From positions 8,928,001-8,992,000 of the forward strand of contig OY783216.1 of the NCBI GenBank assembly GCA_963678705.1: a stretch of DNA of 64,000 nucleotides. Direction: 5' to 3'. The notes under the pieces were generated by a model. The model searched no databases and had not been told where the DNA came from. It worked only from the letters and a program-made list of their open reading frames with translations. The translations under genes and the position numbers were made by a program. The first letter of the stretch is position 1; each line of letters opens with the position of its first letter. The stretch comes from Panorpa germanica. Lineage: Eukaryota; Arthropoda; Insecta; Mecoptera; Panorpidae. Of this stretch, positions 1,862 through 60,434 are shown piece by piece.

Positions 1862-3179
1862 TCATCATATAGGATATATTACAAGTTTTCTAATTGATAT
1901 TTTAAAGGTTACTTGTCAAATAGATCCGTATACGTCCTTGTACCATGAACATACATATATCACCATATTTTATTAACGTAAATTCCCAATTATCTTAACG
2001 TTTCTTATTTCTTATTTTTTTACATACATACTATGATACTTAACCTTAAAATGATGAATTTACTTTCATCTCAGACACTGTTACGCATTAACCATTTATT
2101 TACATCAAATTAAAACAGTGTCCTTGAAATTTTAAAATGCTCTTATGTGTTGTGTGTAGAAGCCCCACTGATTTGGAGGATTTAAATACTTTGGAAATCG
2201 AACGCACAGCCGCAGTCAATTATAACAAGTCTGGCACGGAATACAAAATATTCAATCTGTCAAGTTGAAGTGCAAGGAATACATTTATATTTAAACAGCC
2301 ATTGAACTGTAAATTGAAATAGTAATCATTAGTGAAAAGTGTGTAATATATTTATAAAAAGTGCAATAAGTGATTTGTTAAAGTAAAGGACATGCTATTT
2401 AAAATCATTAGCTAATATATAAATCTGTATAAGATTCAAATCAATCAACACTATAATTAGTTCAAAAATATACCAACAGAGTTTGTTTTAGTTTGGCACT
2501 GGGAACGTTTATTTTATTTTGCTTTTGTTTAGGTTGTGTACCATTTTTTAATTTGATATTTAGAAAATTTATTATAACCTTATCTTACATTAATGTAATA
2601 TTTAATCTAAAAGGATCTTTTTTTTATTTTATAGTTATTTTAAAAGCCTCAAAAGCTTAAACAGTGTCTTAAGTGTCTTGTTTAAGAAGTTTCCATAAAG
2701 TATTTTTCAAAAAGTCGTAAAATTAATTACCACATAAAGTTTTGATATTATTAACGTTGTGGTCAAAGAAAAACAAAATCATTTTCTTATTAGTCTTTAG
2801 GCTAGTCTCATAATTGTTAAAAATTTAGCAGTAAAACAGAAATTTAGATATCTATATCTTCGTATCAATAATAATTTAATAAAATCTTTAATTGTATAAA
2901 AGATTCTTTTCCATTACTTTTACGAATTATAATTTTATCAAAATGTTGTCGACAACAAATCTTGTTTTTATTAAAACATTCTTCTGAACCAACCGATTAT
3001 TTATTAAGTAATCAAATCACCTTTAGTATTTTAGGAATTGAGAAAGTGTTTAATTTAAGATCTTGACCATTGCGCAAGATTATCAGCATGCTGCAATAAC
3101 AAGACAGATCACCAAATAATTTGGGTCAACACAATTTAAATATTATAAAATAATAAGTTGCATAAATTTAAAGAACAAG
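1862..3179. promoter_or_regulatory. Upstream region of the GMC oxidoreductase gene
   Basis: A 1.3 kb non-coding stretch. Near 2180 there is a TATA-like ATTTAAATAC, followed about 30 bp downstream by a CAGTCAAT initiator-like motif. This spacing is what a core promoter with a non-coding first exon would show, but it is an inference from short motifs. The rest is AT-rich with nothing recognisable. Confidence 0.25.
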
Positions 3180-6100
3180 ATGGATTCAACATATTTATGT
3201 TTAATAACTTTTCTAATATCATCTATATCTCCAACAATTGGACAATTATTTTCACCGGAAATGATAAATATGTTTGATAGTAATCTAAACCTGATTCCCC
3301 CAAATGAACGAGGTAGAGTTAAAGATACAAGTCGTTTCGAAAAAGAATACGATTTCGTTGTTATTGGGGCCGGTTCTGGCGGGTCTGTAATGGCCAACAG
3401 ACTATCGGAAGTCTCCAACTGGTCCGTGTTGCTTTTGGAAGCTGGCGACGAAGAAATTTCGTTGACTGATATCCCATTACTGGCAGCATTGACCCAATTA
3501 ACCAGTTACAACTGGGGATACAAAACTTCTCCTGTTCCTGGAGCATGTTTGGGCCTCGAAGGAGGAGTCTGTAACTGGCCAAGGGGAAGAGCTCTTGGCG
3601 GATCAAGTGTTATCAACTTCATGATATACACAAGAGGAAACAAAAAGGATTACGATCATTGGGAAGAACTAGGAAATCAAGGTTGGAGTTATAAAGATGT
3701 TTTGCCGTACTTCTTAAAATCAGAAAATGTTGAAATACCCGATTTGAAAAATTCTCCGTTCCACTCCACCGAAGGATATCTTACAGTAGATGACGTCCCG
3801 TACAAATCCCCATTAACGAAAGAGTTTCTCAACGCTGGCATTGAAATGGGGTATAACATCAGTGACCTAAATGGCGAAAACCAAATTGGATTTTCATTAA
3901 CACAAGCTAATATTCGTAACGGTAGAAGATGTAGTGCTTCCAAAGCATTTTTAAGACCAATTAGGTTTCGGAAGAATTTACACGTTTCCAAAAACTCTCG
4001 CGTGACGAAAATTCTCATAGATCCAAACACCAAACAAATATTCGGTGTAGAATTCATAAAGAACAAAGTGAAATATATCGTGAAAGCAAAGAAAGAAGTT
4101 ATTTTAAGCGCTGGCACTATAGGATCTGCACATTTACTTCTTCTTTCCGGTGTGGGACCAAAGGAGCACTTAAATAAATTCGGAATTCCTGTTATACAAG
4201 ATTTAAAAGTGGGTTATAATTTGCAAGATCATATATCCTTGTCAGGACTGGCGTTTCGAGTGAATGCATCCATCACCGTGGTTGAATCAAGAATGCAAAG
4301 CAATCCGGTTCCGTTATTAGACTACATCCTTCACGGAAGAGGGCCATACACAATCCCTGGTGGGGCAGAAGCCTTAGCATTCATCAAAACAAAGTACAAC
4401 CAACGTGGGGAAGATTACCCTGATATTGAGGTGGTTCTAGGAGCCGGTGCCTTGAGTGGTGACTCATCAGGAACCCTAAGAAAACTGTTAGGAATTACTG
4501 ATGAGTTTTATAAAAAAGTTTATGGAAGTATAATAGATACTGACGCATTTGCTATGGCTCCTATTTTGCTAAATCCAAAAAGTAGGGGTAGGATCTCGTT
4601 AAAAAGTCGGAATCCATTTCACTGGCCAATCATGGAGCCTAATTATTTTCAAGATGAGCAAGATTTAAAAACACTAAGGGAAGGTGCTAAACTGGTAAGT
4701 TTGGAATTACATTACTTATTTTATATTTACTGTTTATTAAGGTGCTCTATTCTATTTGACCAGAGGTGGAGCAAATGCGTGTTGTGTGTCTTAGATATAT
4801 TCCATTATTTTTATAAGACTACGTTACAAACACTATACCACTACTACAAAACTCTCTCAGAGATTTAAAATAGAGCAAATATTCCTCAGAATTACATTAA
4901 AAAACAACGATGAACTTATTTGGTTAACGTAAAACAAATTTTGTGAATTGCATACGTAATGCGCCTAGAAGGGTTGCAACCTAAGTTTCATCACTTCAAC
5001 TGTACACTTACTTCCATCGGAGCTACCTTTAAAGAACTTTCATTTCGTTCCTTGTGAACACAGTGAATAGTAATTTGTATGAAAAATAATATTTTGTACC
5101 TTACTCATTAATTTTCTACTAATGAACATTTTTAACATGAACGCATTGTGAACACGGCCTATGTTGAAGATAAGCATGTTTCAAGGCCTGCTTAGTAGGT
5201 GTCATTAGCATATAATTATTGAACGGCACATAATTATTGGAGCAAATAGACCTCTAACTCTTTAGAAACTCTTTACATAGGTTGTGTGTACGTGATACAG
5301 AACAACCGTAGCGCAAATATTGCACAATAAAACTGCACAGTTCCAAAGTAAGTAGCAAGTAAAAATTATTAGATCGAGGTTAATCACACAAATTGTAGGG
5401 TGCTGCCACCGCAGAGAAGTTGAAACTAATGATCCTTGACATTTCACGATTCGCACCGCGGGAAATTTGAAATTACATCGAGAGAAAATATTATATATTA
5501 CCTTGTAAGGCATGCATTCTTTAAGACATAAATACATTTTTAATTTACACTTCTGTGTTTTCAGACTGTTCAAATTGCCAGAACCAGCGGTTTCAAAAAA
5601 TACAATACAACGCTGCACAATGTACCATTTTTGGGTTGCGAACATTTGATTTTCGAGTCTGATGAATATTGGGAGTGCTGTATTAGACAAGTGGGTGGTA
5701 CCTTACATCATCAGGTAATAATTGTGATTTAAAACTAATTATTAAAATCATTCATTTATCTCGTTTATAGTAAATGCGAAGTAGGAAAACATTAGATCCC
5801 AATGGGCTTGTGTCCTCATCCTTTAGTGGTCGATTTTTCAATTGTTGATTGAAATTGATGTTAATAAATGTGTATTGGCGTGTCTATTTTATTAAATATC
5901 TAAATGTTGAAGGATAGCAATTAAAAATTCGAATTGTAGTTTTAACGCTAAAAATGGTCGGCCATTTGTATGACGTGCAATGCATTTTATACATCAGTTA
6001 TTTGTTGAGTAGGTCAGTGCTGTGTTAATGTTCTGTAGCTGTTGGTAGTCGAAATAATCAAGTCAAGTCAAAGAATGATAAGTTTTTATTTTATTTAACC

Positions 6101-7606: not shown

Positions 7607-10473
7607 ATGTTTAAGGCGTTGCTCTTATGCATTTTCGTGGCGTTGATTGGGGAAATAGTATGTCCACCAGTGACTACAAAAAAGCCCGGGGAGCATCCTC
7701 CTCCCCCAGACTCTGAAGTGGGTGATACTAAAATGTCTGACTACATAGCGTATCATCATTATCTAGAACAAGTTGTAAAAGCTCTAGAGAGCGATCCAGT
7801 ATTCAGGGAGAAATTGGAAAAAGCAGAAGAAGTGGACATAAGGGTGAGTAAATTACACTTGTTTCCTTATGTGCTCTAAGTTTATTTTATACATATAGTT
7901 ACATACATTGCTAATGCCACGTTTCCTTAATTAACTATTATTTAGACTGGCAAAATAGCTAACGAATTGGAATACGTAAATCATAACGTACGCACCAAAT
8001 TAGATGAACTTAAACGTACAGAATTAGAACGTTTGAAACACTTAGCAACAAAAACTTTTGAACTCCAAAACGATATTGATCCAGAACATTTAAAAATTGG
8101 GGAACATTTAGACGAGTTAAATAAACACACTTTTGAAATTGAAGATTTAAAGAAATTGATTTTAAAAACCACTCATGATCTCGCTGAAGCTGATAAGAAG
8201 AGAAGGGCAGAGTTTAAGGTCAGGTCATATCAGTTTTTAAATATTATATTATGCGTAATATGTTTGTATAATAGTATTTAATATTGTTTTCCTTTTCAGG
8301 AATATGAAATGCAAAAAGAGTTTGAAAAACAGGAAGTTCTTACTCATCTTGATGAGGAACATAAGAAGGAATATTTGAAAAAAGTTAAGGAACAAGAAGA
8401 AAAGCATAAGAAACATGATCCTGTATGAAATCTATTATAACTATTTCTTTATAAGTAATTTTATTTCGTCATAATTTCATAATATAAAACAAATACTGTT
8501 TTAGTTGCATCATCCAGGAAGTAAAAAACAATTAGAAGAGGTATGGGAAAAAGAAGATCACATGGAAAACCAAGATTTTGACCCAAAAACATTCTTCGCT
8601 TTACATGGTCCGTGACAATAGTTAACGACAGTAATCTATAATTATATTTTTTTAATATATTATTTTATTATTTAGATTTGGATGGAAACAAAGTATGGGA
8701 TCAAGATGAAGTTAAAGCTTTATTCCGTAAAGAATTAGATAAAATGTATCAAGCTGGAATTCCGGAAGATGACATGAGGGAACGTGCTGAAGAAATGGAA
8801 CGCATGAGAGAACACGTATTTTCTGAAGCTGATACCAATAGAGACGGCCTAATAAGGTAGTCAAATTTTCCTCTCCTTAGGTTGTTATAAAGGAGGAAAA
8901 ATTTACATTAATTTGTGTATTTACAGTTACGATGAATTTTACGCACAATCTCAAAAGGAAGAATTTAATCGTGACCCTGGTTGGGATGGTCTTGACACAC
9001 AACAAGTTTACTCACCAGAAGAGTACGCAGCTTATGAAAAACATCAGCGAGATGAAATTCAACGAATGATTTCACAGGGCCTTGTAAGTATTATAGAATC
9101 TATAACTAATAATTAATATTTTAGTTTCGTTTCATTTCATAGTTATTTACAATAAAAATATATGCATGTAGTATTAATGTAGGCACGTTTTTTTTAGTTA
9201 TTTTACGTTTTTGTCTTTAGTCTAGTATTTTTAGTCTTTATTTTACGTTTGTTTTGTTTAATTATATATTTGTTAAATTTTCGTTTTTTGAAGTTAAGTT
9301 TAATCAAACTATAATACAGATATAGTTTTATTTTAACACTCATCACTAGCACTAATTTAGCATGTTAGTTTCTTTTTTAATTTTGTATCTCTACACGTTT
9401 ATAACACTCCGTATTGTACTGTATTATTTGCCATTGCTTTTTTGGTAGCTACCACCAGACCCTAGAGTCCAATATGGATATGATGGCCATCAGCAAAATG
9501 GACAGGTAAGTCAACAAAAATCAATGCAAATGTGTGAGAAGTGAGAATGATGAGAAATGCGGTTTTGTGCGTTTAACTAACAGCGTAAAAATTAAACTGA
9601 GTATTTTACATTTTATATTACTTATTAATGAAATGTTTTTTATATGTTTAGTTCCCACCTCAAGGACATCCAGCGTATCAAAATATAGCGCAACAACAAG
9701 AGTTACATCCTGGACAAGTTCCTCAAGCTCAGTACCACCCACAACAACCTCCTCAAGCACAATATCACCCTCAACAACCTCCTCAAGGTCAATATCATGG
9801 TCAACAACCACCTCAAGGACAATACCAGGCTCATCAACCTCCTCAAGGTCAATATCATGGCCAGCAACCTCCTCAAGGTCAATATCATGCTCAACAACCA
9901 CCTCAAGGACAATACCAGGCTCAACAACCACCTCAAGGACAATACCAGGCTCAACAACCACCTCAAGGACAATACCAGGCTCAACAACCGCCTCAAGGGC
10001 AATACCAGGCTCAACAACCGCCTCAAGGGCAATACCAAGCTCAACAAGGGCAACACCAGGCTCAACAACCACCTCAAGGACAATACCAGGCTCAACAGCC
10101 TCCCTCAGGCCAAGTACCTCAAGGACAACAACCGCCGCACAACGTAAATCAGGTAAATAAAAAGTTAATAAGTAGTGAAATTGTTTCTTATCGTATTTAG
10201 TATAATTTATGGTTTTCAATATTTGCAGGGACAACCTCCAGCACAAGGAAAAAAGGAAATCGAAACTAATGAAATACAAAAACCTAAGCTGGCGGTAAAA
10301 CTTAGTCTTTAATATTTTAAAACTCTTAACTTTTTATTGGTATGAATACTAATTCAAATATTAATTTTCAGCCAGTTTTAAATCCAAGTAGTGCACATGG
10401 TCCACAACCAATTCCACCACTTAAAGAAGACGGTCAGCCTAAAAATGTGCCACCACAAGTTCAAGTTGTATAA
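7607..10473 (+). CDS. NUCB1: Nucleobindin (EF-hand Ca2+-binding secretory/Golgi protein)
   Basis: Nine coding exons, 599 aa: 7607-7843, 7946-8218, 8300-8422, 8505-8607, 8676-8856, 8927-9083, 9449-9505, 9652-10152, then 10229-10294 with the last at 10372-10473 (counting the last two separately gives ten segments). All phases agree. Start chosen at 7607 because the hydrophobic signal peptide MFKALLLCIFVALIGEIVC begins there. Residues 80-210 are a charged helical region. The family block HHPGSKKQLEEVWEKEDHM leads to EF-hand 1 (DLDGNKVWDQDE) and EF-hand 2 (DTNRDGLISYDE). EF-hand 1 has Lys where the invariant Gly normally stands. The C-terminus is an expanded Pro/Gln/Gly/Tyr repeat tail. Nucleobindins bind Ca2+ in the Golgi and secretory lumen and contact G-alpha subunits. 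AATAAA lies near 10507. Confidence 0.92.
9770..10095 (+). repeat. 30-bp coding tandem repeat (PPQGQYQAQQ) in nucleobindin
   Basis: About ten to eleven copies of a 30-bp unit, CCTCAAGGACAATACCAGGC plus TCAACAACCA, encode the decapeptide PPQGQYQAQQ with variants (YHGQQ, YHAQQ, YQAHQ). One unit is shortened to GQHQAQQ. The central units are almost identical in DNA, which suggests recent slippage or unequal exchange. The purine/pyrimidine bias also opens long reading frames on the other strand and frames, which are not genes. Confidence 0.9.
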
Positions 10474-21900: not shown

Positions 21901-22248
21901 TTTGGTTTAAATATTTTTCTTCAGACCTAGCTTTAGAGTAGCACAGACACATGAGATACAGGGTAATACCATTCTTAATCATTCCGGTTTTCACAATCAC
22001 GTCCGTTTTTGTAACTTACTTTTAAAACTTATTATTAACTTTGACATTCGCGTTATTTAAAAAAAAATATTAACTGCAATTTTATAAATTGTAAGAGTAA
22101 TGTACAAGTACACGCTGTAACAAGTTAGCTACAAATATAATGAAAGTAAAATAATATTTTCGCTAGAGACCCCTCGCTGGTTTAATGCGGCACTGGTTAG
22201 CACACTTTATTATTAAACTTTTTGTTTTGCAGCGCCTAACAAAAAGAA
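18966..22248. other. AT-rich intergenic DNA between Fbxw7 and gustatory receptor 1
   Basis: It probably contains the Fbxw7 3' UTR. A low-complexity run of GTAATTAA/GTAAGTAA units lies at about 21247-21330. An acceptor-like TTTTGCAG at 22225-22232 suggests that the receptor has an upstream non-coding exon somewhere here. No gene, RNA gene or transposon recognised. Confidence 0.5.
21247..21330. repeat. Low-complexity (GTAATTAA)n-like run
   Basis: Short irregular iterations of GTAATTAA and AATTAAGT over about 80 bp. A simple repeat without further meaning that I can see. Confidence 0.6.
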
Positions 22249-23924
22249 ATGGCAACTAATCCATCACAATCAGCTCTAGCAGCGCTACACTTATTTCGCT
22301 GGATCTGCGGAGTGGCACCGTTAGACGAAAGCTCATACTGGACCGGATGTTTCAAAAGCTGTGTTTATGTCTTATTCTATCTGATCATTATGTACTTTGT
22401 ACTTATCGGAGAGGATTTTACAATTGATTCAGGGAACAATATCAACCGATACACATCAATAATTGCAGAATATGGGCTAATTATTGTTACTGTAACTATA
22501 GTAGTTAACGAATATATCAACCGAAGTAAAATTCGAAATACTTTCGAGAAAATTAAAGAAGTTGATGATACTTTTGTTAATAATGATACATTATTAAATG
22601 TATCTGTCAACTATACAGGGTTGAAACACCATTTACTGATTATAATAACTGCACTTTGTGCCGCTAACATTTCGTACATAATGTTGTCTTGTTATTATTT
22701 GAGTGCATTTAGATCGTTGCCTTCAATTCTCATTGTACTGGTCTTGGTGTCTTATCCGAATTTCATGATCTCAGTTATGGTAACTCAAGTCTCCATAATG
22801 CTCTATATACTCAGAGAGAGATTTATTTGGATGAACAGACAACTTAGGAAATTATCAAAAGCTGGACATTTCAGCAGCACTTTCGTAAGTACATGCTCAG
22901 TAAGCACAAACGTAACATTTACGTAACGTAATTAAACATTTTTATTTTAAATAATCACAACAAATTAATGTTTCAGTTGCCAACTGATTCTGATATTACA
23001 ATTCAACTGAAGGCAATTCATGTGTTTCGAAATATTTACTCCAAGCAAATGGAAGTTTTCGCTAAAATAAATGGATTATACAACATCTCGGTGAGAGATT
23101 TTTTTATTGTTCGTCTTGTTAAATATAAATGGACTAGACTTTACAAAAAACTATAAACTTATAAACAAATAAACTTGCACTTGGAACATTATAACATAGG
23201 ATCTACATCTATCAAAATTAAACAGTTTTTTATCTTTATCAATTTTCCTATTCTAAAAGATATGTAAAAATTCTTTAATATAGTTTCAAACACTTTCTTA
23301 AACAAAATGTACCTTTGTTTTCTAGGTTTTGCTCTTTGTAGCTATGTCTTTCATAGTCGCAGTGACCCAGTGCTACGAAATAGCTATTTTCTTCACAGAA
23401 TTAACTTTATTTGATATTATATACATAGCAAAAGCTGTTATGTCTTTTTACTGGATGTTAATTTTTATCATTCACATGATGTTCCTCGTACTAGGATGTC
23501 ATCGAACAGCCACTGAGGCACAAAAAACTGGCGCTTTGCTCCACAGAATGCAAAACAGACATCATTTCTACATCAGAGAATCTGTAAGTTATAATTTTAA
23601 AGTAAGCCCAAGCCCAAGAATAAAACGAAAAGTAAAAGTGTGACTGCAGGAATCTCAATCAATTTGTAATATTTAGATTAAACAATGGTCGCTAGAGTTA
23701 CTGCATGGAGATGTCGCGTTTACTGCAGGAGGACTATTTTCCGTTAATATGACCTTACTATTCGCTGTAAGTTTTATAAATATTTTTTTGTTAATATATC
23801 TATAGCTATTAAAATTATAAATTTATTATTTCAGATGATTGGATCTGTTACAACTTATCTTGTGATATTAATTCAGTTTAATTTACTGTCAAAATCTGGA
23901 AATAATAAATACAACTCTACTTAA
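22249..23924 (+). CDS. Gustatory receptor 1 (insect 7TM chemoreceptor)
   Basis: Five exons, all introns phase 0: 22249-22884 (212 codons), 22977-23090 (38), 23326-23583 (86), 23677-23766 (30), 23835-23924 (29 plus stop); 395 aa, typical for the family. Several hydrophobic segments are visible: CVYVLFYLIIMYFVLI near residue 37, LIIVTVTIVV, LLIIITALCAANISYIML, then VLLFVAMSFIVAVTQ in exon 3. The last exon has the gustatory-receptor signature TTYLVILIQFN near the C-terminus (TYhhhhhQF). Such receptors are ligand-gated cation channels in taste and some other neurons; ligand unknown. The small C-terminal exons match the second receptor at 30255 one for one, so the two are tandem duplicates. The start ATG at 22249 follows a splice acceptor at 22232. 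AATAAAATG near 23979 is a likely polyadenylation signal. Confidence 0.9.
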
Positions 23925-24024: not shown

Positions 24025-26991
24025 TGTTATCTTAATTATTTTGGATTTTATAAGGGGTTCTAAAAATTCATGGACTTTTTTTTTTAAAATAAAAATTATT
24101 GATTTCTTAATATTTTTTGATGCAGTTATATTCATTTATATTTAAGAAGACGAACTGCGTTAAAGAATTTGAAATATATTAATTATTTTGGATTTTATAA
24201 GGGGTTCTAAAAATTCATGGACTTTTTTCTTTAAAATAAAAATGATTGATTTCTTAATATTTTTTGATGCAGTTATATTCATTTATATTTAAGAAGACGA
24301 ACTGCGTTAAAGAATTTAAAATATCTTAATTATTTTAGATTTTATAAGGGGTTTTAAAAATTCATGGACTTTTTTTTTTAAATAAAATTATTGATTTCTT
24401 AATATTTTTTGATGCAGTTATATTCATTTATATTTAAGAAGACGAACTGCGTTAAAGAATTTGAAATATATTAATTATTTTGGATTTTATAAGGGGTTCT
24501 AAAAATTCATGGACTTTTTTCTTTAAAATAAAAATGATTGATTTCTTAATATTTTTTGATGCAGTTATATTCATTTATATTTAAGAAGACGAACTGCGTT
24601 AAAGAATTTAAAATATCTTAATTATTTTAGATTTTATAAGGGGTTTTAAAAATTCATGGACTTTTTTTTTTAAATAAAATTATTGATTTCTTAATATTTT
24701 TTGATGCAGTTATATTCATTTATATTTAAGAAGACGAACTGCGTTAAAAAATTTAAAATATTTTAATTATTTTGGATTTTATAAGGGGTTCTAAAAATTC
24801 ATGGACTTTTTTTTTTAAATAAAATTATTGATTTCTTAATATTTTTTGATGCAGTTATATTCATTTATATTTAAGAAGACGAACTGCGTTAAAAAATTTA
24901 AAATATTTTAATTATTTTGGATTTTATAAGGGGTTCTAAAAATTCATGGACTTTTTTTTTTTAAATAAAAATTATTGATTTCTTAATATTTTTTGATGCA
25001 GTTATATTCATTTATATTTAAGAAGACGAACTGCGTTAAAGAATTTGAAATATATTAATTATTTTGGATTTTATAAGGGGTTCTAAAAATTCATGGACTT
25101 TTTTTTCTAAAATAAAAATGATTGATTTCTTAATATTTTTTGATGCAGTTATATTCATTTATATTTAAGAAGACGAACTGCGTTAAAGAATTTGAAATAT
25201 CTTAATTATTTTGGATTTTATAAGGGGTTCTAAAAATTCATGGACTTTTTTTTCAAAAGGAAAAATTATTGATTTCTTAATATTTTTTGATGCAGTTATA
25301 TTCATTTATATTTAAGAAGACGATCTGCGTTAAAGAATTTGAAATATCTTAATTATTTTGGATTTTATAAGGGGTTCTAAAATTTCATGGACTTTTTTTA
25401 AAATAAAAATTATTGATTTCTTAATATTTTTTGATGCAGTTATATCCATTTATATTTAAGAAGCCGAACTGCGTTAAAGAATTTGAAATATCTTAATTAT
25501 TTTGGATTTTATAAGGGGTTCTAAAAATTCATGGACTTTTTTTTTAAAAATAGAAATTATTGATTTCTTAATATTTTTTGATGCAGTTATATTCATTTAT
25601 ATTTAAGAAGACGAACTGCGTTAAAGAATTTGAAATATCTTAATTATTTTGGATTTTATAAGGGGTTCTAAAAATTCATGGACTTTTTTTTCAAAAGGAA
25701 AAATTATTGATTTCTTAATATTTTTTGATGCAGTTATATTCATTTATATTTAAGAAGACGAACTGCATTAAAGAAATTGAAATATCTTAATTATTTTGGA
25801 TTTTATAAGGGGTTCTAAAAATTCATGGACTTTTTTTTCAAAAATAAAAATTATTGATTTCTTAATATTTTTTGATGCAGTTATATTCATTTGTATTTAA
25901 GAAGACGAACTGCATTAAAATATTTGAAATATCTTAATTATTTTGGATTTTATAGGGGGTTCTAAAAATTCATGGACTTTTTTTTAAAAAATAAAAATTA
26001 ATGATTTCTTATTATTTTTTGATGCAGTTATATTCATTTATATTTAAGAAGACGAACTGCGTTAAAGAATTTGAAATATCTTAATTATTTTGGATTTTAT
26101 AAGGGGTTCTAAAAATTCATGGACTTTTTTTTAAAAAATAAAAATTATTGATTTCTTAATATTTTTTGATGCAGTTATATTCATTTATATTTAAGAAGAC
26201 GAACTGCGTTAAAGAATTTGAAATATCTTAATTATTTTGGATTTTATAAGGGGTTCTAAAAATTCATGGACTTTTTTTTCAAAAGGAAAAATTATTGATT
26301 TCCTAATATTTTTTGATGCAGTTATATTCATTTATATTTAAGAAGACGAACTGCTTTAAAGAAATTAAAATATCTTAATTATTTTGGATTTTATAAGGAG
26401 TTCTAAAAATTCGTGGACTTTTTTTTCAAAAAGAAAAATTATTGATTTCTTAATATTTTTTGATGCAGTTATATTCATTTATATTTAAGAAGACGAACTG
26501 CGTTAAAGAATTTGAAATATCTTAATTATTTTGGATTTTATAAGGGGTTCTAAAAATTCATGGACTTTTTTTTCAAAAGGAAAAATTATTGATTTCTTAA
26601 TATTTTTTGATGCAGTTATATTCATTTATATTTAAGAAGACGAACTGCATTAAAGAAATTGAAATATCTTAATTATTTTGGATTTTATAAGGGGTTCTAA
26701 AAATTCATGGACTTTTTTGTCAAAAATAAAAATTATTGATTTCTTAATATTTTTTGATGCAGTTATATTCATTTGTATTTAAGAAGACGAACTGCATTAA
26801 AATATTTGAAATATCTTAATTATTTTGGATTTTATAGGGGGTTCTAAAAATTCATGGACTTTTTTTTAAAAAATAAAAATTAATGATTTCTTATTATTTT
26901 TTGATGCAGTTATATTCATTTGTATTTAAGAAGACGAACTGCATTAAAATATTTGAAATATCTTAATTATTTTGGATTTTATAAGGGGTTC
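24025..26991 (+). repeat. Left arm of an inverted satellite: ~20 direct copies of a ~147-bp monomer
   Basis: About twenty head-to-tail monomers. The start TTGGATTTTATAAGGGGTTC recurs at 24041, 24188, 24335 and so on, a spacing of 147 bp. Each monomer holds GGGGTTCTAAAAATTCATGG, a poly-T/poly-A tract of variable length, and an internal inverted pair (TGCAGTT ... AACTGCG) that could fold into a hairpin. Copies are nearly identical. Groups of monomers are themselves repeated: a two-monomer unit near 24190 and 24480, and a six-monomer block whose start at 25681 recurs at 26563 (882 bp apart). No coding capacity. Confidence 0.95.
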
Positions 26992-26999
26992 CTTATCGT

Positions 27000-29685
27000 G
27001 TCCATGAATATTTAGAACCCCCTATAAAATTCAAAATAATTAAGATATTTCAAATTTTTTAATGCAGTTCGTCTTCTTAAATATAAATGGATATAACTGC
27101 ATCAAAAAATATTAAGAAATCAATAATTTTTATTTTTAAAAAAAAAGTCCATGAATTTTTAGAACCCCTTATAAAATCCAAAATAATTAAGATATTTCAA
27201 ATTTTTTAATGCAGTTCGTCTTCTTAAATATAAATGGATATAACTGCATCAAAAAATATTAAGAAATCAATAATTTTTCTATTTAAAAAAAAGTCCATGA
27301 ATTTTTAGAACCCCTTATAAAATCCAAAATAATTAAGATATTTCAAATTTTTTAATGCAGTTCGTCTTCTTAAATATAAATGGATATAACTGCATCAAAA
27401 AATATTAAGAAATCAATAATTTTTCTATTTAAAAAAAAGTCCATGAATTTTTAGAACCCCCTATAAAATCCAAAATAATTAAGATATTTCAAACTTTTTA
27501 ATGCAGTTCGTCTTCTTAAATACAAATGGATATAACTGCATCGAAAAATATTAAGAAATCAATAATTTTTATTTTTAAAAAATAGTCCATGAATTTTTAG
27601 AACCCCTTATAAAATCCAAAATAATTAAGATATTTCAAATTTTTTAATGCAGATCGTCTTCTTAAATATAAATGGATATAACTGCATCAAAAAATATTAA
27701 GAAATCAATAATTTTTATTTTTAAAAAAAGAGTCCATGAATTTTTAGAACCCCTTATAAAATCCAAAATAATTAAGATATTTCAAATTTTTTAATGCAGT
27801 TCGTCTTCTTAAATATAAATGGATATAACTGCATCAAAAAATATTAAGAAATCAATAATTTTTCTATTTAAAAAAAAGTCCATGAATTTTTAGAACCCCC
27901 TATAAAATCTAAAATAATTAAGATATTTCAAATTTTTTAATGCAGTTCGTCTTCTTAAATACAAATGAATTTAACTGCATCAAAAAATAATAAGAAATCA
28001 TTAATTTTTATTTTTAAAAAAGAAGTCCATGAATTTTTAGAACCCCTTATAAAATCCAAAATAATTAAGATATTTCAAATTTTTTAATGCAGTTCGTCTT
28101 CTTAAATATAAATGGATATAACTGCATCGAAAAATATTAAGAAATCAATAATTTTTATTTTTAAAAAAAAAGTCCATGAATTTTTAGAACCCCTTATAAA
28201 ATCCAAAATAATTAAGATATTTCAAATTTTTTAATGCAGTTCGTCTTCTTAAATATAAATGGATATAACTGCATCGAAAAATATTAAGAAATCAATAATT
28301 TTTATTTTTAAAAAAAAAGTCCATGAATTTTTAGAACCCCTTATAAAATCCAAAATAATTAAGATATTTCAAATTTTTTAATGCAGTTTGTCTTCTTAAA
28401 TATAAATGGATATAACTGCATCAAAAAATATTAAGAAATCAATAATTTTTCTATTTAAAAAAAAGTCCATGAATTTTTAGAACCCCCTATAAAATCCAAA
28501 ATAATTAAGATATTTCAAACTTTTTAATTCAGTTCGTCTTCTTAAATATAAATGAATATAACTGCATCAAAAAATATTAAGAAATCAATCATTTTCCTTT
28601 TTGAAAAAAAAGTCCATGAATTTTTAGAACCCCTTATAAAATCCAAAATAATTAAGATATTTTAAATTCTTTAACGCAGTTCGTCTTCTTAAATATAAAT
28701 GGATATAACTGCATCAAAAAATATTAAGAAATCAATAATTTTCCTTTTTGAAAAAAAAGTCCATGAATTTTTAGAACCCCTTATAAAATCCAAAATAATT
28801 AAGATATTTCAAATTTTTTAATGCAGTTCGTCTTCTTAAATATAAATGAATATAACTGCATCAAAAAATATTAAGAAATCAATATTTTTTCTATTTAAAA
28901 AAAAGTCCATGAATTTTTAGAACCCCTTATAAAATCCAAAATAATTAAGATATTTCAAATTTTTTAATGCAGTTCGTCTTCTTAAATATAAATGGATATA
29001 ACTGCATCGAAAAATATTAAGAAATCAATAATTTTTATTTTTAAAAAAAAAGTCCATGAATTTTTAGAACCCCTTATAAAATCCAAAATAATTAAGATAT
29101 TTCAAATTTTTTAATGCAGTTTGTCTTCTTAAATATAAATGGATATAACTGCATCAAAAAATATTAAGAAATCAATAATTTTTCTATTTAAAAAAAAGTC
29201 CATGAATTTTTAGAACCCCCTATAAAATCCAAAATAATTAAGATATTTCAAACTTTTTAATTCAGTTCGTCTTCTTAAATATAAATGAATATAACTGCAT
29301 CAAAAAATATTAAGAAATCAATAATTTTCCTTTTTGAAAAAAAAGTCCATGAATTTTTAGAACCCCTTATAAAATCTAAAATAATTAAGATATTTTAAAT
29401 TCTTTAACGCAGTTCGTCTTCTTAAATATAAATGGATATAACTGCATCAAAAAATATTAAGAAATCAATAATTTTCCTTTTTGAAAAAAAAGTCCATGAA
29501 TTTTTAGAACCCCTTATAAAATCCAAAATAATTAAGATATTTCAAATTTATTAACACAGTTTGTCTTCTTAAAGTTTAGTGGATATAACTGTAACAAAAG
29601 TGTTCAAAGATCTTAAATTTTCTCTATAAAAAAATGTCCATGAATTTAAAAAAGGTCGCATAGAAATCTAAAAAGCATTGATGTT
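27000..29685 (-). repeat. Right arm of the inverted satellite: ~17-18 monomers in reverse orientation
   Basis: The same ~147-bp monomer, now in reverse complement (GTCCATGAATTTTTAGAACC ...). The first unit begins at 27000, eight bases after the left arm stops. A variant with GCAGTTTGTCTTCTT recurs at 28383 and 29116, 733 bp apart, meaning a five-monomer duplication specific to this arm. The last unit (about 29545-29685) is strongly degenerate, as expected at an array edge. Together with the left arm it forms a 5.6 kb palindrome between two gustatory receptor genes. Confidence 0.95.
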
Positions 29686-30254
29686 TAAAGTGTAATAAAG
29701 CAAAAATTCTACATATTTTAAATTTTAATTTAACAGTTTATCAATTTAACGTGCAGCGGATATTACTCTATTGAGAACTAGACAAACAAGAAATAAGGAT
29801 TATCAATAGTTTCTCTTTGCTATAACAAAATTGTGATACACACCCATTGCCATGCAATGGGGCGAAGAGCTAATACTATAATAACTTTCAAGTCAACATT
29901 AATCAAATTAGGAAATTATTATTTATGTATTTAATTTATTTACTGAAATCAATTATGCATGATTAAAAGACATGCGTGAGCGTAAATAAAATGTCTTTTT
30001 AATTAAAAATATTATTTTTATTCCAATAAATGAAAAGAGTAGAAGAATTATATACGAGTATATTTTAAAATTAGTAAAACTTTACTAATGTTTCAAAAGT
30101 GTAAAAGTATTTATTTAAAAAGTGTACATGAAATTTAATTTCAATATTTCAAGTTGAATTAAATTAAAACTCCGTGTAAACGTATGCTTGCAATTCATTT
30201 ATATCCCGTGACTATTTATTTGTGTTTTATACGTACGTACAGTTTTCAGGTTCA
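29686..30254. other. Upstream region of gustatory receptor 2
   Basis: AT-rich DNA with no gene. A splice acceptor TTTTCAG ends at 30249, five bases before the ATG of the second receptor, so an upstream non-coding exon is likely but was not located. Confidence 0.4.
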
Positions 30255-31965
30255 ATGGCTACACATATGTTGGACCATACATTGAAACCAATTCTAACAT
30301 TCCGTAATATATTTGGAATTACTCCATTTGATAAACACCTGTCCATCCTATCTTATGTTAAAACTGCTGTATTTCTAATTATCTACGTGCCTACAATGTA
30401 CTATATCATTTACGATCAAATGTCACTAACCCTAGACAGACGGAATTATTTGATGCAGTACATCTCAATGATGATCAGGAATGCGTCTACTGTTATGACA
30501 ATAGTGACAGTCAGTATTGAATACCTCAGTCGAAAGAAAATTCTAAAAATGTTTGAGAAAATCAATGAAATCGATGAAATTATCACAAGAAATATTAATA
30601 TTTTAAATGCGTTTGTTGATTACAAATTTGTGAAAAGATTTGTGAATATGCTGTTGATTCAGTCATGCATTGTTATAGTTTCCAATTTGTTTTTATTATA
30701 TTATTTTTATTATAATTTAATATCGTTTGATCTCTTCATTGGACTTACTGTGTCTGCGTCGTTGCCAGGCGTTGTTAATACAGCGATGGTTACTGCGGTG
30801 TGCTCCTTTCTTTATTTAGTAAAAAGCAGATTTTTGTGGATCAATCAACAGCTTGTTTGCTTCAATAAAAATAATTACATTGGAGGTACAAATGTAAGTA
30901 TCGGAAATTGTATGAAAATATATTTGTATTCTAAAATTACTTAATTTTGATTTAAAAGAAACTTGTAACATGAATATCTAGAGTTTGTTGCGAAGGGTTT
31001 TGCTTGTTGCCATTATATCAGGCGGATCACATTGGAATACAATAAAAACACCCGGTATGCATTCTATACGAATTCGATTTGTTAATATTAATCAAGAAAC
31101 TGAAAATGCCTGAGAGTAACTGTCTAGTATTAATACCACCATTACGAAGAGAAACACTAACTAGAATTTACTAATTTATAATTCCACTTTAAATGTACAT
31201 TTAGAAAACAGCACCCATAGAAGCTAGTGTAAAGAAACAATTAATAGCTCTTCAAATATTGCGACAAATTTACTCTAAACATTTAGAAATCTACATGCTA
31301 CTAACAAAGTCCTACAGTACACTTGTAAGATTCATAATTTGTTTTACATTAATTAATTTACTAAATAATTGCAGTTATTTATAAAAATTTCTTCTCCAGC
31401 TTCTGCTATACGTGCTCATGACATTTCTGGTGGCAGTGACTCAGTTTTATCAAATGTCACTTTACTTTTTAAATGACAACCAAGCAGCAGATGCAGTGTT
31501 CAGTATTTTTTGGGTATTACACGATATTGCTGGATTGACGCTCATAGCTTTTTGTTGTCATATGGTTTCTACAGAAGCATCTAAAACAGGCGCATTTTTG
31601 CACGCTGTGCGATACATAGATGAATATTATATTAGAGATATTGCAAGTATCAATTCTAAATAATAACATTACATTTTGATTATTTTTATTAGCATTTTTT
31701 AATAACTTCTAGGTGAAGCAATGGTCTTTGCAAATTCTACATGAAGACGTGGTATTCAAGGCCCGCGGAATGTTTGCTGTTGACATGACATTGGTCTTTA
31801 CGGTAATCATTTTTGTTTTTTAATTACATAAAAAGAAAAAGCTTATTGTTTATTAATAACTACAATTTCCAGGTCTTGGGTTCTGTGACATCCTATCTAG
31901 TTATTCTAATTCAATTTAATTTGGCTTACGTTGTATCACAAAGTAACCAACAATGCCAGACATAA
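30255..31965 (+). CDS. Gustatory receptor 2 (insect 7TM chemoreceptor)
   Basis: Five exons, all phase 0: 30255-30893 (213 codons), 31205-31324 (40), 31400-31642 (81), 31713-31802 (30), 31873-31965 (30 plus stop); 394 aa. The C-terminal signature is SYLVILIQFN (Ser for the usual Thr). Blocks shared with receptor 1 include TEASKTGAFLH (TEAQKTGALLH there) and VKQWSLQILHEDV (IKQWSLELLHGDV there). Intron positions are identical, so these are tandem paralogues that have diverged widely in the first exon. Intron 3 appears to start with GC instead of GT (ATT|GCAAGTAT), the common non-canonical donor class. I chose the ATG at 30255 after the acceptor at 30249; no upstream in-frame ATG fits. Likely a ligand-gated cation channel; ligand unknown. 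Confidence 0.9.
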
Positions 31966-58960: not shown

Positions 58961-59195
58961 TGTTAAATATGTAAAAGTGATTCGTAAAATGTTGCACTCA
59001 TATAAATCAGATCTGTTCGATCACGACCATTGCTCACAAGACTCAGGAATAGAGCCCCATGCCAGAATTCTTCTCCTCTCTAAATTTAACCTTTTCCCGA
59101 TAACTTATCAAAAAACCCAGATAATGAGGTATTTTCATGAAAAAACCAGATCTGGGTGGAAAAACTCAGGAGTGAGAGTTCTGCTCTATCATGTA

Positions 59196-60434
59196 CACGG
59201 TGTCCAGAAAGGGTATCGGGTATTTGTTTTCGCGCCATATTCGAAACGGGGCGTCTAAAGGGTGCGGGGAGGGGTTCGTGGCGTCCGCCATTCTGTGGAG
59301 TTTTAGTCACGATGGAACAGTACTCGGGGATGCATCGCGCATTTTGCGTACGAGCGAATTATCGTAATGGTGATTCAATAGTGACTGCTCAACGTCTCTA
59401 TCGTGCGGAATATCGTACACGCCACGCGCCAAGTGACGATAGCATTAGGAAATGGATCAGGATGTTCGAGAATACAGGTGCGTCAGTTAAAATTCAAAAC
59501 TCTGGTCGTCCTCGTTCAGTTCGCGATGAAAAAACAATTGAAGAAGTTGAGGCGTCGGTTCGTCAAAATCCGTCTGTATCCATCCGAAAGCGAAGCCAAG
59601 CGTTGAACATCAAAAAATCGTCATTACATTACATTTTAAAGAAAGACTTACATCTAAAAGCCTATAAAATTCAATTGGTTCAAGAATTGAAGGATGCGGA
59701 CTATGCTAATCGACTGAATTTTGCGAACGAAGTGCTGCAGCGATTTGACAACTTTAACAACATACTGTTCAGTGACGAAGCAAATTTTCACCTGAATGGT
59801 CATGTTAATAAGCAGAATTGTCGGTACTGGGCAGTGGAGAATCCGAGACGAAAGCATGAACGACCCCTGCATAGCCCGAAGGTCGTTGTTTGGGCCGCTA
59901 TGTCTGCTAAAGGCATTGCGATATGTTGCGAAATTTTTTGGTCCCAGAGTTGCAGGAGTTTGCAGGTTTCAACTCAAGAACGTGGTTCCAGCAAGATGGG
60001 GCCACTTGCCATACCTCAAATAACTCAATGGAAGTTGTTAACGAGTTATTCCCTAATAAAGTCATTTCGCGAAGGGGTAACATCAACTGGCCTCCCAGAA
60101 GCCCCGACCTTAGCCCGCTTGACTATTTTGCATGGGGATACCTTAAAAGTAAGGTTTATCAAAACAATCCGACGAATCTAACCCAGTTAAAGCAAAACAT
60201 CAGGTCAGAAATGGCAGCAATATCGATAGCTATGTGTCAACGTGTTATCGCCAATCTTCGTTTCCGTTTAGAAGAGTGCCAGCAACGTAACGGTCATCAT
60301 TTGGATAACGTCATCTTTTCCAAATAATTCTCCAATTCATATGCTAATAATAAACAATAAACTTTTTTATTGCATACAAATAATTTTTGTTTCATTGAAC
60401 TTACAAATACCCGATACCCTTTCTGGACACCGTG
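59196..60434 (+). mobile_element. Mariner-group DNA transposon, near-intact, 1239 bp with 32-bp perfect TIRs
   Basis: Left end CACGGTGTCCAGAAAGGGTA then TCGGGTATTTGT; the right end is its exact reverse complement over 32 bp. Both ends are flanked by TA (59194-59195 and 60435-60436), the duplication typical of Tc1/mariner elements. It encodes one transposase (next entry). Perfect terminal repeats and a single coding break point to recent activity. It lies in gene-free DNA. Confidence 0.95.
59312..60327 (+). pseudogene. Tc1/mariner-type transposase with one frameshift
   Basis: The ATG at 59312 (MEQYSGMHRAF) starts the frame. Residues 1-110 form helix-turn-helix DNA-binding domains (DSIRKWIRMFENTG, then GRPRSVRDEKTIEEV). 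The DDE/D domain shows the first Asp in ILFSDEANFHLNG and, in another frame, the second in TWFQQDGATCHT and the third in SPDLSPLDYFAWGYLKS. Second and third Asp are separated by 41 residues, as in DD41D (rosa-like) mariner relatives. The frame changes between about 59905 and 59950, near the run GAAATTTTTTGG, where a few residues expected after AAMSAKGI are also missing. The stop is at 60325. The copy can therefore not make a normal transposase. Family placement rests on the spacing and should be checked by a tree. Confidence 0.88.

Follow-up and report, generated by a model that had tools for sequence, protein, structure and literature searches.

How did a palindrome of satellite repeats come to lie between two genes, and to what kind of mobile DNA does it belong? 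The window considered here, a stretch of 64,000 nucleotides from Panorpa germanica (contig OY783216.1), contains such a palindrome. We read it, with a probability of roughly 0.75, as a non-autonomous Helitron formed by inverted duplication of its 3′ half, with an 8-bp spacer at the junction, and which RepHel enzymes would mobilise. In addition, the presence of the 3′ end on either side of some copies makes one ask how a Helitron could move when it has no ordinary 5′ end. The features are as follows.

22240..22926, + strand: upstream gustatory/chemosensory receptor, main exon ORF (PF08395)
24030..29873, + strand: complete element, from the left arm through the centre, right arm and 3′ module to the 3′ end, with A (24029) before it and T (29874) after it
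24030..26991, + strand: left arm, about 20 tandem 147-bp monomers, beginning with TC after A, mid-monomer
26985..27021, no strand: centre, GGGGTTC, 23-nt loop, GAACCCC; recurrent across the family
26992-26999: 8-bp spacer CTTATCGT, the first 8 bases of the 23-nt loop
27000..29500, − strand: right arm, 17 canonical monomers
29503..29644, − strand: divergent monomer, outermost in the right arm, 78-83% identity to the other monomers
29645..29842, + strand: 3′ module, non-repeated, common to other copies
29843..29861, + strand: Helitron-type 19-nt hairpin, CCCATTGC-CAT-GCAATGGG
29862..29873, + strand: final 12 nt of the element, GCGAAGAGCTAA; a CTAG end in most relatives
30180..30944, + strand: downstream gustatory/chemosensory receptor, main exon ORF (PF08395)

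An earlier note on this DNA had placed the palindrome between two gustatory receptor genes, and both neighbours indeed match PF08395 (E values of 7.6e-09 and 1.4e-06). By eye, the stop codon of the last exon of the upstream receptor falls at 23922-23924, about 100 bp ahead of the element.

Architecture of the palindrome

Tandem Repeats Finder resolved a left arm of period 147 at 24028-26991 (20.2 copies) and a right arm of the same period at 27000-29647 (18.1 copies), and a monomer profile run on the array gave 21 plus matches followed by 18 minus matches. The palindrome of 147-bp repeats with a single switch of orientation is therefore real, and the 8-base spacer at 26992-26999 lies where the earlier note had put it. 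Around this spacer is a dyad in which GGGGTTC (26985-26991) is followed by the loop and by GAACCCC, starting at 27015. The originally proposed bounds, 24025..29685, proved too short, as the element extends past the repeat array, from about 24030 to 29873; its left boundary can be placed only to within a few bases, since TATC is also the monomer sequence at that point. A small hairpin had also been ascribed to every monomer. What underlies this idea is an inverted word pair (TGCAGTT 20 times in the left arm and 17 in the right, GAACTGC 19 and 12 times); the fold of the consensus monomer is unremarkable (z of -1.4 against 200 mononucleotide shuffles, DNA parameters).

Monomers are on average 94.9% identical to one another in the left arm, 94.0% in the right arm and 93.2% when the two arms are compared; in another copy, L043, the two arms are 80% identical to each other. 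A mirror-register test, which asks whether each arm is a monomer-for-monomer copy of the other, gave no general signal (mean rank fraction 0.415), with L009, L012 and L027 alone ranking near the top. Arm lengths gave a Spearman correlation of 0.29 (p = 0.23).

The 3′ module and terminus

Beyond the right arm, the non-repeated module leads into the 19-nt hairpin, 12 further nucleotides and the terminus CTAA|T, which in most copies reads CTAG|T. The window thus has the 3′ end expected of a Helitron, namely CTRR preceded by a palindrome of 16-20 nt about 11 nt upstream, in the form CTAA here and CTAG in most relatives. A T directly follows the terminus in 23 of the 25 termini read, the remaining two being broken tails. 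The window copy forms a subfamily with L009, L010, L025 and L026; these all have a shorter 3′ module than L023 and L037.

A dispersed family

The earlier note had proposed a genome search with the monomer and the array edges for other copies and empty sites. A pattern covering both halves of the centre matched 74 places and a right-half pattern 61, with no match to either in controls, and the union of searches lists the centre at 87 places. Of the 61 right-half centres, 52 match both halves, seven more read as two-armed and two are single-armed or nearly so. The terminus pattern, allowing up to three mismatches, was found at 169 places, again with none in the control. Likewise, a 301-bp query spanning the terminus yielded 40 scored places, 28 of which end within 1-2 bases of CTAG and 10 of which extend 6-12 bases beyond it; of the other two, one stops 9 bases short and one is the query itself. 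The palindrome is thus a dispersed element, its centre being listed at 87 places and its outer terminus at 169. Its copies share common edges and are non-coding, and the family is therefore held to be mobile and dependent on the enzymes of another element, as had been anticipated from the lack of coding sequence.

Orientation is consistent throughout. Plus monomers precede minus monomers in all 20 fetched relatives and likewise in L037, L039, L040, L042 and L043, and all 29 listed termini lying less than 10 kb from a centre face outward. Among pairs of termini less than 15 kb apart, six are outward-facing, none inward-facing and none in the same direction. Centres are enriched near contig ends, with 41 of 74 falling within the outer 10% at either end (14.8 expected). 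Separately, L018 and L060 are segmental copies with a common flank on C5, and L037 and L055 are related in the same way.

Copy types, flanks and target sites

Three copies, L018 (7840 bp), L042 (958 bp) and L043 (6945 bp), have two intact outward CTAG|T ends. All three are flanked by A on the left and T on the right, as is the window copy, and none has a target-site duplication of 2-19 bp. Most copies read retain one intact 3′ end or none, and their other side stops inside the array. Among 21 loci (the window and L009-L028), the 3′ module stands on both sides in two, on one side in 14 (five of them with no intact tail) and on neither side in five (two of them clipped by the fetched stretch).

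Where the array itself forms the edge, it ends at many monomer phases, and A|TC is clear in only a few copies (the window, L025, L039 and L040). This TC-type 5′ end was not seen at other array ends, and the two-ended copies do without it; in the single-armed L050, the base before TC is T, not A. The scatter of array ends and the small number of loci with the 3′ module on both sides count against the Helitron reading. Of 30 array ends, five fall at phases 66-70 and 11 at phases 9-28, a hint only, as the clusters were noticed post hoc in bins picked by eye and some of the ends run into the 3′ module and not into host DNA.

The search for empty sites, run with eight of the 12 joined flanks that were built, found no match reaching more than 8 bases past a flank junction at these eight loci, among the 40 of 2246 candidates scored. 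A repeat on C5 beside L018 was considered as an empty site and set aside as not clean, because its uninterrupted copy, L061, continues differently from the right flank of L018.

Comparison with known systems and alternative explanations

Several features are shared with the non-autonomous Helitrons HINE and DINE-1, which, in the available text of their descriptions (Cg_HINE of oyster, DINE-1; PMC7492417, PMC4067079), are likewise non-coding and dispersed, with a tandem satellite-like core, a hairpin near the 3′ end, no target-site duplication and probable mobilisation by RepHel. Those elements are described as having one left and one right module and a single repeat orientation, whereas the present arrays are inverted around a fixed centre and some copies bear the same 3′ end on both sides. 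The same sources give Helentron/HINE elements subterminal inverted repeats and insertion at TT; here, the target looks like A^T, with A on the left and T on the right of the two-ended copies and the window copy. Canonical Helitrons such as Helraiser/Helibat, as far as the consulted portion of PMC4778049 describes them, share the CTAG (CTRR) 3′ end with a 19-nt hairpin 11-12 nt before it, the absence of a duplication and, apparently, the A^T flanks. In contrast to these, the present family is non-coding, has no proven 5′ terminal sequence and carries an inverted duplicate of the 3′ end. Helitrons have also dispersed satellite families in C. elegans (PMC4595182); the units there measure 11-40 bases, and the text consulted places palindromes only within individual units and mentions no inverted arrays. 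The left terminal sequence is reported to be essential in Helraiser (PMC4778049, in part), and, in the definitions available to us, Helitrons have no terminal inverted repeats and require an intact 5′ end. An element with two 3′ ends appears to lack the left terminal sequence that Helraiser needs, which counts against the Helitron reading.

The strongest rival, though improbable, holds that the Helitron end is incidental and that a palindromic satellite spreads by itself, through extrachromosomal circles, ectopic recombination or segmental duplication, with Helitron ends hitch-hiking. The many phases at which arrays end, the excess of centres near contig ends and the segmental copies on C5 and at L037/L055 would all fit such a process. 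It accounts poorly, however, for the near-constant T after the terminus, for listed termini near centres that always face outward and for the position of small two-ended copies, L042 among them, in flanks where no other copy is listed.

The earlier note had instead assigned the palindrome to the foldback elements (FB/Galileo). The shape stands: long inverted repeats containing tandem repeats surround a minimal middle, as in FB, Galileo and Tetris, and the inverted repeats of Tetris hold tandem repeats of about 220 bp, according to the part of PMC4079207 at hand. Membership fails because the ends are of Helitron type (a hairpin and CTAG|T), the flanks are A and T and there is no target-site duplication. 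The elements in that account belong to cut-and-paste superfamilies, and Tetris makes duplications of 8-10 bp, against none of 2-19 bp in the three two-ended copies here. Moreover, cut-and-paste does not explain the many copies with one end only. We thus consider it quite unlikely that the element is a genuine foldback (TIR) transposon, belonging to the MULE or P superfamily and mobilised by a DDE transposase.

That the locus is kept mainly as a source of hairpin RNA (siRNA/piRNA) is less probable still. A read-through transcript is predicted to form a hairpin with about 2.5 kb in each arm, but transposition alone accounts for the behaviour of the family; judged from sequence, such a role would be compatible with the Helitron reading and is no alternative to it. 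Finally, an assembly artefact, in which a simple tandem array was misjoined into an inverted chimera, has only the general risk at palindromes in its favour and is the least credible reading, because the arms are only 93% alike and the layout recurs in 20 of 20 fetched relatives, with unequal monomer numbers in the two arms and the same centre within dozens of unrelated flanks.

Candidate machinery and proposed mechanism

The genome contains potential sources of the required enzymes. The Helitron Rep domain, PF14214, gave 150 scored matches here and none in 14 control genomes, and three autonomous Helitrons that were read end in GCTAG|T. These three share no further sequence with the terminus of the element, and the hairpin rule calls no hairpin in them. 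When 100 listed termini were compared with 100 distinct Rep-domain places (drawn from the 150 listed), no terminus proved to be within 15 kb of such a place, and neither this comparison nor the three autonomous Helitrons yielded an autonomous partner with a matching end.

On the Helitron reading, the 3′ half, comprising the 147-bp satellite array, 3′ module, hairpin and CTAG end, would have been inverted and joined to itself at the spacer, probably in a single event in which a replicating strand folded back at the array edge. RepHel enzymes supplied by other Helitrons of this genome may then mobilise the palindrome by rolling-circle copying. One-ended copies would start in one arm at a monomer TC, for which the site TCCATTTATATT is the best-supported candidate, and run as far as the 3′ end of the other arm; two-ended copies would result from cuts at both 3′ ends, each read on its own strand. 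Subsequently, the arrays could lengthen and shorten within each arm.

A bolder extension, to which we give clearly less than even odds and which is offered tentatively, is a symmetrical Helitron lineage with the 3′ (termination) end on both sides and the conventional 5′ end lost. Such elements might be cut at two 3′ ends, one on each strand, or any monomer in an array of start-like sites might serve as their starting point; they would move by rolling circle, converge on foldback transposons and spread palindromic satellite DNA. If the 3′ end indeed stands on both sides throughout a dispersed family, that family would test which end starts transposition, and the 958-bp two-ended copy offers a short natural substrate for an assay. 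The family would also provide a route for palindromic satellite arrays into gene-rich DNA, here between two taste-receptor genes, and cautions that transposon class is not identifiable from a foldback shape alone.

One further set of Helitron-like 3′ ends at the left edge, family B, was first read as part of the element and is provisionally regarded as separate, because two of the B bodies compared, L057 and L058, show no relation to the others. In favour of the Helitron reading, there are 16 places at which the monomer site directly adjoins a different Helitron-like 3′ end (CTAG), 13 of them with the junction CTAG|TCCATTT or similar.

A copied palindrome

The array in the window and its 3' end comprise four features:

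24028-26991, plus strand: left array, 147-bp unit, 20.2 copies (tandem-repeat search)
27000-29647, minus strand: right array, 147-bp unit, 18.1 copies (tandem-repeat search)
12 nt before the end at 29873, plus strand: 19-nt terminal hairpin, CCCATTGC-CAT-GCAATGGG (window sequence)
29873, plus strand: 3' end of the element, CTAA followed by T (window sequence)

The arms are separated by 8 bp and orientation switches once, in agreement with the earlier note's description of about 20 monomers running one way and about 17 the other. The consensus monomer has a G+C content of 20%, and the right arm is closed by a divergent monomer with 78-83% identity to the others. Because mean monomer identity is higher within arms (94.9% left, 94.0% right) than between them (93.2%), and several exact monomer repeats are each confined to one arm, the two arms have separate local duplication histories. 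A chimeric read or assembly fold-back was rejected, as near-identical arms would be expected from it and those of the window are 93.2% alike.

The window (C13:8928001-8992000) belongs to a 464-Mb genome of 249 contigs, in which a 376-bp array query gave 467 matches. A plus-then-minus arrangement with a short centre was found in 20 of 20 fetched 10-kb places, picked by eye from the best matches, a choice that favours long arrays. Short copies located via the terminus were read as a counterweight: L037, L039 and L040 are plus-then-minus, and L038 and L041 show the minus arm only, as the fetched stretch begins inside it. The plus-then-minus order was also read in L042 and L043. A 151-bp centre query returned at least 40 full-length scored places; patterns for the right half and for both halves of the centre occurred at 61 and 74 places, respectively (controls, 0). 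Both halves fit in 52 of the 61 right-half places, and seven of the remaining nine proved two-armed on reading; L050 and L052 lack a left arm by profile, although L052 perhaps keeps about 10 bases of it. The further copies with shared edges that the earlier note proposed to look for were recovered, with the centre at 87 places (union of patterns and 151-bp query) and the terminus pattern at 169. Recurrence of centre and arm order across the genome shows that the palindrome has been inherited and copied as a whole, rather than arising by local accident again and again. The short, single-armed L050 (C5:24282100-24282700) begins at the centre's TCGTGTCC, with a terminus about 440 bp further, and is possibly an ancestral form or a deletion derivative.

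A Helitron-type terminus on one or both sides

Outside the divergent monomer, several copies have in common a stretch (the 3' module) ending in ACACCC(A/G)TTGCCNNGCAATGGGGCGAAGAGCTAG. With up to 3 mismatches, this terminus pattern matched 87 places on one strand and 82 on the other, and its reversed control none. When a 301-bp query across the terminus was used, 28 of 40 scored places ended within query bases 103-105, where 103 is the last base of CTAG; 10 extended to 110-116, one ended at 95 and one was the query itself. A T directly follows 23 of 25 termini of fetched loci, which are partly non-independent (L060 and L018 have a common flank, as do L037 and L055); the exceptions, L020 and the left side of L026, have both lost their last bases.

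Positional analyses drew on 100 listed of the 169 places. All 29 listed termini lying less than 10 kb from a centre point away from it, and listed pairs less than 15 kb apart are outward in six cases, inward or same-direction in none. Among the centres, 11 have a listed terminus on the left only, 14 on the right only, 2 on both sides and 60 on neither. By eye, one-sided termini split 14 to 11 between the sides of the asymmetric centre; neither arm is therefore preferred. Of the six outward pairs, the three read (L018, 7840 bp; L042, 958 bp; L043, 6945 bp) carry CTAG|T at both ends, flanked by A on the left and T on the right. Another pair, C5:23735579-23750112, is not simple, having a further terminus inside (L060). 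Among the window and L009-L028, the 3' module lies on both sides in 2, on one side in 14 (without an intact tail in L019, L020, L021, L022 and L024) and on neither in 5, two of them (L015, L016) extending beyond the sequence that was fetched. The palindrome is thus copied with a precise, outward-facing 3' end, present on both sides in some copies.

Relation to known elements

Canonical Helitrons begin with 5'-TC and finish in CTRR-3', carry a palindrome of 16-20 nt some 11 nt short of the 3' end, and insert at A^T without duplication, according to PMC4067079 and PMC4778049. The CTRR end, hairpin and lack of duplication are common to the element, and judged by its 3' end it is a Helitron, the 5' end being putative. 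The FB/Galileo-type membership proposed in the earlier note holds for shape, in that plus-then-minus arms are present, but not for target-site duplication: none of 2-19 bp was found in L018, L042 or L043. Helentrons and HINEs, as described in the accessible text of PMC7492417 and PMC4067079, were rejected, since their flanks are TT, whereas those here are A and T. The accessible open-access literature describes satellite-bearing Helitrons and Helentrons as well as tandem-repeat foldbacks; a palindromic Helitron with two 3' ends was not found there, which is no proof of absence.

Possible transposition and 5' ends

RepHel-driven rolling-circle transposition would move the element. PF14214 gave 150 scored matches in the genome, several of which sit in long open frames, and no match in 14 control genomes. 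On C2 and C5, Helitron Rep domains in long frames are numerous and include 1119-aa frames that recur with equal score, which suggests recent activity. Reading downstream of the open frames of three autonomous Helitrons reached GCTAG|T. There, the hairpin rule that finds several palindrome-copy hairpins called none; short inverted words before the end were seen by eye. None of the three shares the element's terminus sequence, and none of 100 distinct Rep places lies within 15 kb of a listed terminus.

According to PMC4778049, the Helraiser transposase makes precise single-strand cuts at the right end, and does so on either strand; an element that bears two right ends might therefore move by having each cut on its own strand. 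Helraiser also requires its left end but not its right (PMC4778049), and the need for a left end argues against this route.

The window left end, ...TTTATGTTA|TCTTAATT..., is compatible with A|TC, the boundary being uncertain because the monomer itself reads TATC there. At other loci, array ends spread over many monomer phases. We infer that the 5' end may lie inside the repeat unit, the array thus giving many starts. One monomer site, TCCATTTATATTTAAGAAGAC at phase 66, is distinct: L025 and L040 start there, preceded by A, and of 794 monomers (21 loci), 241 have A|TC at this position and 314 have A|TT. Another Helitron-like 3' end, GGGGTAAACTCTAG ("family B"), adjoins this site at 16 places (control, 0), with TC next in 13 of 16 junctions. 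The junction with the monomer-site TC is exact in L021, L027, L037 and L055-L059 and at the 16 pattern places. Six of eight aligned family B flanks are mutually related, L057 and L058 being unrelated, and family B bodies vary from place to place. Family B may reflect an insertion preference or a composite element.

Distribution and age

Palindromes cluster strongly towards contig ends: on contigs of known length, the first and last 10% together hold 41 of 74 centres (expected 14.8; 14 contigs) and 32 of the 77 termini listed there (expected 15.4). Because terminal modules (last 150 alignment columns) have a mean identity of 87.6%, rising to 93.4% in the window-copy subfamily (window, L009, L010, L025, L026), the family is neither brand-new nor ancient. 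Four of the five subfamily members lie within 1.4 Mb on C13 (8.95-10.26 Mb), as if by local spread or duplication; the fifth, L026, is on C6 (0.86 Mb), and all share a shorter 3' module. Outer flanks are near-identical or identical between L018 and L060 (C5 23.7-23.93 Mb) and between L037 and L055 (C5 21.75/23.98 Mb); these pairs are segmental duplications in which the element is contained.

Other features of the window

A coding-like 30-bp tandem repeat (CAAGGACAATACCAGGCTCAA...) at 9720-10103 lies in open frames on both strands; a Pfam search with its 216-aa plus-strand ORF gave no match. Two further ORFs carry recognizable domains:

3120-4868: 582-aa ORF, GMC oxidoreductase domains (PF00732, E 2.7e-49)
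59141-60181: 346-aa ORF, DUF4817, a helix-turn-helix domain (E 3.1e-14)
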